Shown: in pieces, positions 58,205 through 62,229 of the stretch
Position numbering within the stretch: position 1 is the stretch's first letter
Layout of the letters: every line of letters starts with the position of its first letter
Assembly: GCA_017480425.1 (NCBI GenBank)
Contig: JAFVAR010000047.1
Location: 1-64,000 of the forward strand
Source of the DNA: a bacterium
Lineage (GTDB): Bacteria > Cyanobacteriota > Vampirovibrionia > Gastranaerophilales > Gastranaerophilaceae
Length of the DNA stretch: 64,000 nucleotides
Direction of reading: 5' to 3'
Program-made: the position numbers and the translations under genes
The notes under the pieces: model-generated
Told to the model about the DNA's origin: nothing
Database searches by the model: none
What the model saw: only the letters and a program-made list of their open reading frames with translations

Positions 58205-58984
58205 CTAATAAATATTTGAAAAAGACAAGAAAAATTCAGATATTGTATTAATTAAAATAGGCATAATCCAAATCATAATCGCCGCTCCAAACACAGGTTT
58301 GAAAAGGAAACTTAATTGAAATACGTTAACCTGCGGAGCTGTTTTTGAAATTACACCCAAAATGATATCTTGACCAAGCGTTGCCAAAAGTACCGGAGAT
58401 GCGACTTGCAGCCCCATATACAAAACATTTGAAGTAGTAGTAATCAAATAGTCTAAATTGATAATTTTTTCAAGCGGAATTACAACTGCATATATAGGGA
58501 AAACTTCAAAACTCCTGATAAGAGCATTAAACAACCAATAAAAACCGCCCAGTTCAATAAATATAAGAAGTCCTAAAAGAGTAATAACACGACTTAAGAT
58601 AGATGTCTGACTGTTTGTTGTCGGATCCATTACCATAGCAGATGATAAACCCATTTGAGTATTAATCATATCGCCGCCTGCTTCTATTGCCAAAATAAAT
58701 AATTGAGCAATATACCCTACAATGGCGCCTGCCGCAAAATTTAATGTTAAAAGCAGAAGCGGTGAAACATCAGCAGGAGGCATCTCCGGCTTAAGTATCG
58801 GTGTAATTATAATTGTTAATATAAAAGCAAACGCAAGTTTAACCATACCTGCAATTTCTTTTCTGTTAAGAACTGGAGCAAATCTTATAAACCCAAGAAG
58901 TCTTGCAAATACAATAAAACCCGCAGAAAACCAGCGAGCAAATTCAGGAAATAACGCAGACATCTGGGTTACTATTTGGTCCAT
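58205..58984 (-). CDS. fliR: Flagellar export apparatus protein FliR
   Basis: 259 residues, standard FliR length, with six membrane helices. Typical are GFIVFARLLGFIRFAPVLNR at the start, LAFAFILTIIITPIL, and the conserved GGDMINTQMGLSSAMVMDP (about 110-128). The end has LFKPVFGAAIMIWIMPILI. It is part of the FliPQR export gate at the base of the flagellum. It shares one base (TAATG) with the secreted-protein gene upstream, so both are translated from one mRNA. Confidence 0.95.
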   Translation of the reverse strand: MDQIVTQMSALFPEFARWFSAGFIVFARLLGFIRFAPVLNRKEIAGMVKLAFAFILTIIITPILKPEMPPADVSPLLLLTLNFAAGAIVGYIAQLFILAIEAGGDMINTQMGLSSAMVMDPTTNSQTSILSRVITLLGLLIFIELGGFYWLFNALIRSFEVFPIYAVVIPLEKIINLDYLITTTSNVLYMGLQVASPVLLATLGQDIILGVISKTAPQVNVFQLSFLFKPVFGAAIMIWIMPILINTISEFFLSFSNIY

Positions 58985-59370
58985 TATTCTCCATCCCTTT
59001 CTTTTAATAATGGTGGTTCATCCAACTCATATTCATATTCGAAATATCCGGGAGGACAATCTATTGTTAAAATTTCAAAACCTTGAATTTCATCTATTAT
59101 TGTAGAATCTCCTTCTACTTTTACATTAAATACAACTTTTTCCTTGCCGCCTTTTGTAACAATAAATCTCGAAGCCCCTTCTTTTAACGGATGAACAATT
59201 AACGTATTTTTCTCATTCATAATTGTTACAAGCGGAAAAACATCAATGACATCATTATGTTCAATTTTAATATCAGTCAACTTTTCAGGATTAGAAATTA
59301 TGCAATCTTCTCTTGCCTGTACAGATAAAGTTATTAAAAATAAAGAAATAACCGCTAATATTTTTTTCAT
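58984..59370 (-). CDS. Secreted protein between fliQ and fliR (pilus-formation-N / CpaC-N-like)
   Basis: 128 residues with a signal peptide (MKKILAVISLFLITLSVQAR, cleavage after VQA). The core, IEHNDVIDVFPLVTIMNEKN then TLIVHPLKEGASRFIVTKGG and VVFNVKVEGDS, has the strand order and Gly-turn of the pilus formation N-terminal domain (the CpaC/RcpA N-domain). The last third is acidic with Glu/Tyr. Two Cys are in the mature part (DCIIS and IDCPPG). It is not a usual member of fliOPQR operons. Close spacing on both sides (2 bp and -1 bp) ties it to the flagellar genes. A periplasmic or rod-related partner is inferred only. Confidence 0.7.
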   Translation of the reverse strand: MKKILAVISLFLITLSVQAREDCIISNPEKLTDIKIEHNDVIDVFPLVTIMNEKNTLIVHPLKEGASRFIVTKGGKEKVVFNVKVEGDSTIIDEIQGFEILTIDCPPGYFEYEYELDEPPLLKERDGE

Positions 59371-59372
59371 AT

Positions 59373-59864
59373 TTATCTTCCTAACATTTTATTGATTTCA
59401 ACAAAATTACCTTTCGGCATTGGTGTTTTCGGAGCTGTTTGATACTTAATTTTTTGCCCTTTATCTATATATGGGACTTTCCCCGGATTTTTCATAACTT
59501 CTTCAACAGTGGGAACATTTTTGAACTTATCCTGTTTCATCTCTTCTTCAAAAGGAGTTGTATATTTGTAATAATCTGCAGGAAGTGCAAATGTGTCATT
59601 CTTGGTTATTGTTTGGAATGCCAAATTTGTCCCTTCCGTAAATAAGTTTGTAAGCAATTTCATAAAGCCTAAACCACCAATAATAATTACTAAAAATACC
59701 GCAAAAATTTTCGGTGCAGCAGCAATAGTCTGCTCTTGAACTTGAGTTACAGCTTGAATTATACCAACAACCAAACCAATCGCAGCCGCAGTTAATACAC
59801 ACGGCATTGATATTGATAACATTGTCATAAAACCTTTTGCTAAATATTCTGTTAGTAATTCCAT
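59373..59864 (-). CDS. fliQ: Flagellar export apparatus protein FliQ with C-terminal extension
   Basis: 163 residues from ATG 59864 (MELLTEYLAKGFMTM). FliQ is normally about 89 residues. The first 85 form the two membrane helices of FliQ, with AIGLVVGIIQAVTQVQEQTI (about 28-47) clearly conserved. Residues 90-163 are an added soluble tail with many Lys, Pro and Glu (DTFALPADYYKYTTPFEEEM, then PTVEEVMKNPGKVPYIDKG). I see no known domain in it. An earlier in-frame start overlaps fliP and lacks similarity. Downstream it is followed two bases later by the secreted-protein gene. Confidence 0.88.
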   Translation of the reverse strand: MELLTEYLAKGFMTMLSISMPCVLTAAAIGLVVGIIQAVTQVQEQTIAAAPKIFAVFLVIIIGGLGFMKLLTNLFTEGTNLAFQTITKNDTFALPADYYKYTTPFEEEMKQDKFKNVPTVEEVMKNPGKVPYIDKGQKIKYQTAPKTPMPKGNFVEINKMLGR

Positions 59865-59880
59865 TTTAAAACTATCCTTT

Positions 59881-60519
59881 TTAATTATAACTTTGTACCA
59901 AGCCCTGGACAATTAAAGCCCAACCGTCAACTGCAATAAATATAAGCAACTTAAACGGAAGCGAAATAATCGTTGGTGATAACATAAACATACCAAGTGC
60001 AAGCAATATGTTCGCAACAACAAGATCAAGTACAATAAACGGTACAAATACTATAAAACCAATCTCGAAAGCAGTTTTAAGTTCGCTTAAAATGTAAGCC
60101 GGTGCCACTTCCCAAATAGTTATTTCATCAGGAGATTTAGGCGGTGTTTTGTGCTTTAGTTCCACAAAGAACGCCAAATCACCTTCACGAGTTTGCTTTA
60201 ACATAAATTCTTTTAACGGTTTAGAACCTTCATCTACTGCCGCAATAAGGTTTTGATTCTTCTGATACGGCACGGAACCACGCTCATACATTTGTTGAAA
60301 AACACCACCCATAGTATAGAATGTTAAAATCATACACAATCCGATTGTTACAATTGCCGGCGGTACTTGTACACCCATTGCCGTTTTCAATAATGAAAAT
60401 ACTATTGTAAATCTTAAAAATGAAGTCATACAGCAAAATACAAACGGTATAAGTGAAAATAAAGACATCACCGTAAGCAGCTGCAAGACCGGATTCATAT
60501 TTTGTAAAGCGCTATCCAT
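59881..60519 (-). CDS. fliP: Flagellar export apparatus protein FliP
   Basis: 212 residues with four membrane helices and no cleaved signal peptide, shorter than the 245 residues of E. coli FliP. MSLFSLIPFVFCCMTSFLRFTIVFSLLKTA-type start, then MGVQVPPAIVTIGLCMILTF. The end, EIGFIVFVPFIVLDLVVANI and LALGMFMLSPTIISLPFKLL, is diagnostic. Five copies form the export gate core. It lies 25 bp after fliO and 16 bp before fliQ. Confidence 0.96.
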   Translation of the reverse strand: MDSALQNMNPVLQLLTVMSLFSLIPFVFCCMTSFLRFTIVFSLLKTAMGVQVPPAIVTIGLCMILTFYTMGGVFQQMYERGSVPYQKNQNLIAAVDEGSKPLKEFMLKQTREGDLAFFVELKHKTPPKSPDEITIWEVAPAYILSELKTAFEIGFIVFVPFIVLDLVVANILLALGMFMLSPTIISLPFKLLIFIAVDGWALIVQGLVQSYN

Positions 60520-60544: not shown

Positions 60545-61057
60545 CTAACCCTTAATTTTTTCTGCCAAGCTTCTCATTACTGATTTATATTGCTGCGACT
60601 GTTCATTTTTTTGCACAGCATCAACAGTAACTACAGCTTCTTCTTGCGGTACTTGTTCAGGTTCACCCTCTTGTATCTTCTTCAAAGAATGATGAACTAT
60701 TGTATTTCTTATACCGCTTCTATCCATATAACAAGGCTTTGAAAGCATATCGATTGTATCTTTAAATGATTCGACAGATTTTGCAGCAAGTTGTGTCTCA
60801 GGCAAAATTTCTAATTTATCTAACTTTGACACAAGACAAGTTTTATCAGCATCTCCCGCAATAAGAAAATTTTCATGCCCTGTTGAAACTATGTATAGCA
60901 TTTTTCTTTGCCCAAGAGACATTGTATCTACAAGTTTTAAGTATTTTGATTTATGAATTCCCCCAACTGATGTTGCATTTTTAAATACCAAAAGTGCTAC
61001 AACAATAACTCCCACCATTGCTAAAGTATAAACAATAAAGTTTGCCAAATATCCCAT
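60545..61057 (-). CDS. fliO: FliO-like flagellar export assembly protein
   Basis: 170 residues from the second ATG of an ATG-ATG pair (61057), with GAGGAT five bases upstream. One N-terminal membrane helix (about 4-26) is followed by a small cytosolic domain of the FliO type: KYLKLVDTMSLGQRKMLYIV, then NFLIAGDADKTCLVSKLDKL. A disordered Glu/Gln-rich tail follows. FliO assists assembly of FliP. The gene order fliM/N-fliO-fliP-fliQ-x-fliR supports the call despite the weak conservation of FliO. Confidence 0.82.
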   Translation of the reverse strand: MGYLANFIVYTLAMVGVIVVALLVFKNATSVGGIHKSKYLKLVDTMSLGQRKMLYIVSTGHENFLIAGDADKTCLVSKLDKLEILPETQLAAKSVESFKDTIDMLSKPCYMDRSGIRNTIVHHSLKKIQEGEPEQVPQEEAVVTVDAVQKNEQSQQYKSVMRSLAEKIKG

Positions 61058-61122
61058 CATATCCTCGCTTTTTTTGAAAATAATTTCTCGTTATTTGTTT
61101 TTTAATGCTTTTTGTTAAAAAA

Positions 61123-62229
61123 TCAACCCTGATTTTCGTCAACTTCAAAGTCACTGTAATCAAAATCTTCACCTTCATGATTTTCCTCTGAATTCTCAGA
61201 TGAAGGCTCATCAATTTCAGGTGCCGCAGAATCCGCAGATGAATTTGAATCACTGACTTTTTCGATTCTTACTCCAAATCGGTCATTAATTATCACAAGT
61301 TCTCCCATTGCAACAACCTTACCGCCGACCTTTAACGAAACTTTATTATCGTAAACGGAACATAAGTCAACGATTAGTCCTTCTTCTATGCTCTTAAGTT
61401 CACCCAAGGTAACTTTTACTTTGTCAAACTCAGCCATCATATCGACCTGTATGCTGTCCCACAAATTTGTATTTGCATCTTCGCTCATACTGCTTCCTCC
61501 GCCCATATCATATGGTTCTATAATTTTTATATTTGGTTTAACTTGAAATTTCTGTATAATATTGTCGCAAACAAGTGTCATTTCCGAAGATTTACTATTT
61601 TCGAAAACAACTATATCGCCAATATCCAACTTTTTTATATCTGCAACGGGAAATGTTGTTGAACCCAAAATCAAGTTTACTTCCACTAAACTGCTTGCAA
61701 AATCCATATCATTAAATCTTACTTCTGAAGTATCAATATTTTGTGGTGACAAAATATCTTTCGGAACAGATATAATGAATTTTGCAGCATTATCAGAACT
61801 TTCGCTTTTGACAAAATATGTTAAGTGCAATATTTCGTTATAACGCCTTTGCGGATCTATAGTAAAATTCGGGGCAAGTGATTCATACAAAAAATCATTA
61901 AAGGCAGTTACAATCCTAGCTTCAAGCTCTGATACTTCAGTTAATTCAAATTTTCTGTTATTTTTACCTAAAACTTTATCTAAAATAACATTAATTGCTT
62001 CTTGAGAAATTCTTATATATACATCATTCTTAGAATTTATTTTTACTTTGGTAACAAAAAAAGTTTCATTTTGTGCAAGAACATTCATGTTAGTACTGAT
62101 TGAGGCAAGTTTATATTCAAATCCGTCAAAAAAGAACTCGTTGCTGCAATTCTTGACAACAGGTGTAAAAATTGAATCATACCAGTTATATTGCTTATAT
62201 AATTCATCAAAAAATACTGAATTTATCAT
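61123..62229 (-). CDS. FliM/FliN-family flagellar switch protein with two SpoA domains
   Basis: 368 residues. 1-175 form a FliM/CheC-like middle region. The first SpoA domain is at about 180-240 (LVEVNLILGSTTFPVADIKK) and the second at about 258-326 (VKVTLGELKSIEEGLIVDL, FliN-like). An acidic disordered tail follows (330-368). The N-terminal CheY-binding peptide of FliM is absent. Dual SpoA layout is known from type III secretion SctQ and some FliY variants. It probably forms the rotor C-ring or export-sorting platform. First gene of the operon; the start is divergent from ftsZ. Confidence 0.84.
   Translation of the reverse strand: MINSVFFDELYKQYNWYDSIFTPVVKNCSNEFFFDGFEYKLASISTNMNVLAQNETFFVTKVKINSKNDVYIRISQEAINVILDKVLGKNNRKFELTEVSELEARIVTAFNDFLYESLAPNFTIDPQRRYNEILHLTYFVKSESSDNAAKFIISVPKDILSPQNIDTSEVRFNDMDFASSLVEVNLILGSTTFPVADIKKLDIGDIVVFENSKSSEMTLVCDNIIQKFQVKPNIKIIEPYDMGGGSSMSEDANTNLWDSIQVDMMAEFDKVKVTLGELKSIEEGLIVDLCSVYDNKVSLKVGGKVVAMGELVIINDRFGVRIEKVSDSNSSADSAAPEIDEPSSENSEENHEGEDFDYSDFEVDENQG

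Follow-up and report, generated by a model that had tools for sequence, protein, structure and literature searches.

The closest described relatives of the system reported here are the flagellar export apparatus with its hook-basal body and the non-flagellar type III secretion systems (NF-T3SS), among which the 'Myxo' type of the Myxococcales is a flagellum-derived exporter devoid of a motor. FliE, FlgB and FlgC, used as flagellum-specific markers by Abby and Rocha (2012, PMC3459982), are all absent from the Myxo type. In Rhizobiales, RhcC1, a stand-alone outer-membrane secretin N-domain for which a linker function was proposed, has its gene among the core genes of the T3SS (PMC3459982). Concerning Melainabacteria, the available parts of two studies (Di Rienzi 2013, PMC3787301; Soo 2014, PMC4040986) report genes common to four genomes out of four, namely flgG (twice), flgC, fliF, fliH, flhA (twice), fliI, flgE, fliP, fliQ, fliR and flhB, and such sets are called there flagellum genes or an incomplete flagellum. 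According to the same parts, ACD20 carries gene 0008 between fliQ (gene 0007) and fliR (gene 0009). No description of a second conserved system was found in the open-licence literature searched, the available parts of these two studies included.

The window analysed here, a stretch of 64,000 nucleotides from a member of the Gastranaerophilaceae (assembly GCA_017480425.1, contig JAFVAR010000047.1), holds an export-gate operon in which a small gene, called X hereafter, separates fliQ from fliR. Judging from sequence, this operon is part of a second flagellum-derived export system (System 2), separate from the motility flagellum. The thirteen genes shared by the four Melainabacteria genomes match it in kind and are very probably the same genes as those of System 2. 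X itself is read, with a probability of about one half, as a component of System 2 that would form a periplasmic ring, collar or linker round the gate and rod, its tail docking to a partner.

Gene X in the export-gate operon

The operon lies on the minus strand in the order FliM/N-like, FliO, FliP, FliQ, X and FliR, according to Pfam identification. Its features are the following.

61123..62229, minus strand: FliM/N-like protein with C-terminal SpoA domain(s); FliN and SctQ models both matched, below their cut-offs
60545..61060, minus strand: fliO2; PF04347, 33 bits, and TIGR03500 below its cut-off
59881..60519, minus strand: fliP2, 212 aa; lacks the signal peptide and the N-terminal segment present in the flagellar FliP of this genome
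59373..59864, minus strand: fliQ2, 163 aa from ATG; Pfam FliQ
59373..59590, minus strand: conserved extension of about 75 aa at the C-terminus of FliQ2, which the flagellar FliQ of this genome (91 aa) does not have
58984..59370, minus strand: X, predicted secreted beta-sandwich protein of 128 aa between fliQ2 and fliR2
59314..59370, minus strand: predicted signal peptide of X, residues 1-19, from sequence reading, the nearly invariant A19 and a model helix at 2-13
59086..59313, minus strand: predicted beta-sandwich of the CpaC-N / VirB9-N type, covering about residues 20-95 of X, from AlphaFold models, Pfam and fold searches
59050..59064, minus strand: tail of X, first [LI]DxPP motif (residues 103-107, IDCPP)
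59011..59025, minus strand: tail of X, second [LI]DxPP motif (residues 116-120, LDEPP)
58205..58984, minus strand: fliR2; Pfam FliR

The open reading frame of X has an ATG start, begins 2 bases beyond the fliQ stop at 59373 and is overlapped by one base by the fliR start at 58984 (TAATG). The coupling to export-gate genes on both sides, claimed by the original prediction, is thus borne out by these junctions and by the Pfam identity of the neighbors. The signal peptide claimed at the same time holds too: MKKILAVISLFLITLSVQA reads as a cleavable one, and its residue A19 is nearly invariant in the alignment of X homologues. The gene is confirmed as real. The closest pairs of X sequences give dN/dS values of 0.07-0.13, indicative of purifying selection, and the protein diverges fast, with about 20-60% identity across the order. 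In the tail, residue D104 of the first [LI]DxPP motif is invariant in all 23 order-wide X sequences, and a scan of 1020 ORFs for this motif produced ten matches, eight of them in X.

Homologues of X were found in 32 of 34 genomes of the same genus; a broader sampling gave 48 of the 50 genomes listed. X precedes fliR in all 30 same-genus loci read and follows fliQ wherever the contig reaches this gene; the spacing of fliQ2, X and fliR2 amounts in most loci to few-base gaps or overlaps. At E<=0.001, an order-wide X profile had matches in 213 of 383 genomes, which belong to 39 of the 51 genera, the weakest of these matches being possibly false. The location between fliQ and fliR was observed in thirteen genera of family f1 (g18, g22, g24, g25, g26, g30, g31, g32, g36, g41, g44, g46 and g48) as well as in families f2, f3 and f6, with about 1.1 kb of extra sequence between X and fliR in one f3 genome (G048). 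The expectation that X would always stand between fliQ and fliR in relatives therefore holds among close relatives and does not extend to the examined genomes of g20, g27 and family f7, where X is missing between fliQ2 and fliR2. X is also absent from the same operon in the examined genomes of f9 and f15, two other families of the class, which agrees with the predicted restriction to this lineage. For this reason, the sequences are best read as indicating an order-level addition, lost by some lineages. Three public records titled 'uncultured Acinetobacter sp.' (L032, L035, L070) carry an X of the Gastranaerophilales type, and these names look wrong on that account.

This distribution bears on the notion that X is a passenger using the operon for its expression and working elsewhere in the periplasm. 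Some lineages have indeed lost X and kept the operon, as such a notion would allow. The position of the gene is nevertheless kept across much of the order despite its fast divergence, and no relocated copy of X was detected in the g20 and g27 genomes listed, so that a passenger is highly unlikely.

System 2 and the motility flagellum

The original prediction assigned X to a flagellar operon, and on this point it is incorrect or at best incomplete. The same genome carries on another contig (C43) an ordinary flagellar arrangement, fliP (with signal peptide), fliQ (91 aa), fliR and flhB, without X, and the candidacy of X as a flagellar gene proper was rejected. FliP2 shares 79-80% identity with the only FliP that genera g18 and g20 possess, against 42% with the flagellar FliP encoded on C43; the paralogy of the two gate sets is judged on identity and distribution. 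The genome of the window is estimated to be 70% complete, in 52 contigs, and its annotation comes from searches and selected stretches.

FliP of the window type and its full-length FlhA are present in all 19 Gastranaerophilales genomes sampled, and 11 of the 19 possess in addition the flagellar FliP and FlhA. Eight genomes from six genera contain only the FliP, full-length FlhA and FlhB of System 2, without the flagellar set. The same partition is found for other components. FlhB occurs in two copies in genomes with the flagellar set and in one copy in those without. The FliG C-terminal domain (FliG_C) was found once in each of 6 out of 14 genomes, which also have the flagellar set, and is absent from the 8 others, all of which have System 2 and no flagellar set. 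C-terminal domains of the rod/hook families are present in 14 of 14 genomes, with 2-3 copies in the absence of the flagellar set versus 6-8 in its presence. System 2 therefore appears, on these sequence data, to be kept throughout the Gastranaerophilales.

These observations make it very improbable that the motility flagellum of this lineage includes X as an additional component. The neighboring FliO, FliP, FliQ and FliR homologues do obtain better scores with flagellar models than with non-flagellar ones, and some X-bearing genomes also have a flagellar set; however, genomes devoid of flagellar FliP, FlhA and FliG retain X together with its operon, in agreement with the X-less flagellar fliPQR-flhB operon located elsewhere in the genome of the window.

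The gene content of System 2 can be illustrated with G138, a genome without the flagellar set, in which flgF/G-like genes, flgB, flgC, an SLT lytic transglycosylase gene, fliE, fliF, a gene in the position of fliG, fliH, flhA2 and fliI are contiguous. System 2 possesses its own FlhA, FlhB, FliF, FliE, FliH, FliI, rod proteins and lytic transglycosylase, and is devoid of the FliG C-terminal domain. The protein encoded at the fliG position (L143:10774-11769; L136:422-1453) lacks FliG_C and shows at most a very weak match to FliG_N, in one member (E 0.0072). A FlhA-like protein of about 495 aa, whose match is confined to the cytoplasmic half (FlhA profile 303-655), also occurs in 19 of 19 Gastranaerophilales genomes sampled, for example at L138:9621-11105 (G000:C46), L137:9224-10702 and L141:11539-13020; in G044, its gene adjoins fliJ/fliK-like, flgD and flgE genes. 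A further ORF of 216-286 aa with pieces resembling the FlhA C-terminal part was noted in two genomes of the same genus (G000:C10:71415-71933; G033:C17:92752-93411).

System 2 proteins are nearer to flagellar than to injectisome models and in most cases do not reach the curated cut-off of either. FliE of the window's genome passes its cut-off with 56.2 bits, FliP2 misses that of the fliP model by 0.15 bits, and the gate proteins all remain below the SctR, SctS, SctT and SctV equivalog cut-offs, FliP2 passing one broader EscR/YscR subfamily model. System 2 has homologues of the gate, the MS ring, the ATPase and the rod proteins of the flagellar export apparatus and hook-basal body, and it shares with the motility flagellum FliE and, in G138, FlgB-, FlgC- and FlgF/G-like proteins. 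It differs from the flagellum in being a second copy beside a normal flagellar set, in scoring below most flagellar equivalog cut-offs, in the lack of FliG_C, and in having a FliQ tail, a short FliP and the inserted X. With the Myxo NF-T3SS it has in common a flagellar descent, the lack of a motor and the lack of any dedicated secretin seen so far, whereas, unlike that system (Abby and Rocha 2012, PMC3459982), it keeps FliE, FlgB and FlgC.

Concerning the outer membrane, 13 of 14 genomes yielded a single secretin gene and G145 yielded two, and none was seen in the System 2 loci read. The single secretin of most genomes is probably that of type IV pili. Since most genomes have only this one, no dedicated outer-membrane channel of System 2 is known. 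The second secretin gene of the flagellated G145 is a 452-aa frame (G145:C7:40246-40734).

A tentative proposal can be made at this stage: a motorless, flagellum-derived exporter kept by an entire order of gut and environmental bacteria, in which a stand-alone VirB9-N/CpaC-N ring protein would replace the secretin or the P/L rings for crossing the envelope, might represent a branch of its own in type III secretion, placed between flagella and injectisomes. If the second machine is real, many supposed flagellar genes of gut Gastranaerophilales would not serve for swimming, motility calls made from such genes would be wrong, and a common group of animal-gut bacteria would harbor an unrecognised type III exporter. 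It would moreover be a living intermediate with a rod and without a motor, and would bear on the evolution of secretion systems from flagella.

Domain type of X

A resemblance to the N-terminal region of CpaC was part of the original prediction and finds some support in profiles. The corresponding Pfam family, PF13629, matches 19 of 30 members of the genus, weakly (best E 0.0016), and its gathering score of 23 bits is exceeded by two orthologues from other genera (24.7 and 24.5 bits), several others reaching 12.7-20.2 bits; X of the window itself gave no match to this family at E<=1. The best match to PF03524 (VirB9/CagX) was obtained with a member of family f3 (28.0 bits, E 2.4e-6), below the cut-off of 34.2 bits. 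A search of the X profile against PDB sequences gave no meaningful match.

AlphaFold models were produced with a pLDDT of 84.7 for X of the window and of 91.1 for a divergent member, L128. The L128 model is the more informative, the window model giving only weak Ig-like matches in the structure search (E 0.12 and above). For this model, Foldseek ranked first the N-terminal domain of VirB9 from the R388 type IV secretion system (E 3.2e-4), and VIA-align placed it close to TrwF (Z 9.0, rmsd 2.3 over 80), DotH (8.6), VirB9 of X. citri (8.0) and CagX (7.7). In the same alignments, S-layer/Big-type and phage Ig-like domains score level with the VirB9-type ones, and because of this tie the fold alone is no proof of a link with outer-membrane channels. 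Taken together, the Pfam matches and the fold comparisons favor the reading of X as an isolated domain of the kind that occurs where outer-membrane channels have their periplasmic base. Its predicted fold is like that of the N-terminal region of CpaC/RcpA and of the N-terminal domains of VirB9, CagX, TrwF and DotH, with weak to moderate sequence similarity. Unlike these proteins, X consists of the domain alone followed by the [LI]DxPP tail: no secretin domain was found in the 128-aa ORF, which stops after the tail, and the CpaC/RcpA secretin and VirB9 C-terminal domains are missing.

Proposed position of X in the machine

According to the favored model, Sec would export X to the periplasm, as its signal peptide suggests, where it would fold as a single beta-sandwich of the kind described above. 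Several copies would then encircle the export gate and rod of System 2 as a ring or collar that links them to the outer envelope, and the [LI]DxPP tail at the C-terminus would dock to a partner. N-terminal domains of VirB9 are known to form rings in type IV secretion systems. This property, the signal peptide and a FliQ2 tail that probably faces the periplasm are the reasons why a ring or linker is favored. The orientation of the FliQ2 tail is deduced from the way in which FlhB wraps round the FliPQR base, at the loops of FliQ (PMC7064499). This tail is kept in Gastranaerophilales, where it ends in a motif like PNFVETNKILGR, and takes another form in families f9 and f15.

The nearest precedent for X as a linker is, by analogy, RhcC1, although the latter has the PF03958 secretin N domain and X matches the PF13629 / VirB9-N type instead. 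The periplasmic bushing or anchoring function put forward by the original prediction is plausible. On the sequence record, X is dispensable in evolution, being missing in g20, g27, f7, f9 and f15, and this counts against the favored model, as do the single secretin gene of most genomes and the equally high scores of S-layer/Big-type and phage Ig-like domains. As for the docking tail, an LDPPP sequence carried by the lytic transglycosylase of an f7 genome was considered as a shared docking motif and rejected; it is treated as chance because it occurs in one of the four short transglycosylases found (189-230 aa).

Two other roles at the gate have to be weighed. The conserved and probably periplasmic FliQ2 tail, together with the tight coupling of X to fliQ2 and fliR2, could point to an assembly or stability factor for FliR2 and FliQ2, in a FliO-like role, perhaps binding this tail and remaining outside the finished machine. 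Such a factor is unlikely: the FliQ2 tail is found also where X is missing, and the predicted fold of X is like that of structural ring domains, not that of known chaperones.

Alternatively, X could be a separate cap or plug closing the System 2 gate until FliE assembles. In Salmonella, the periplasmic gate is sealed by a beta-cap formed by the N-terminal strands of FliP and FliR (PMC12403130). Compared with the flagellar FliP of this genome, FliP2 starts 37 alignment columns later; it lacks the N-terminal segment that contributes to this cap, so that a secreted beta protein encoded between FliQ and FliR might take its place. FliP2 is, however, equally short in the X-less L148 (g20) and L165 (f9). 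A short FliP2 therefore needs no X, and this weakened role is distinctly unlikely. The ring or linker model remains the preferred one and, if the second machine is real, X would offer a concrete first handle for the purification of System 2.

As regards exported proteins, an N-terminal F-x-G motif was considered as an export signal of System 2 and rejected, as it showed no consistent enrichment compared with internal sequence or with a genome devoid of System 2. Proteins starting with MGMAASQARFLGLTARKxNVEYEGQQINQ recur in several genomes (L137:831-1970, minus strand; L144:4876-6435, minus strand; L146:14561-15820, plus strand) and, from their sequence, are possible exported proteins.
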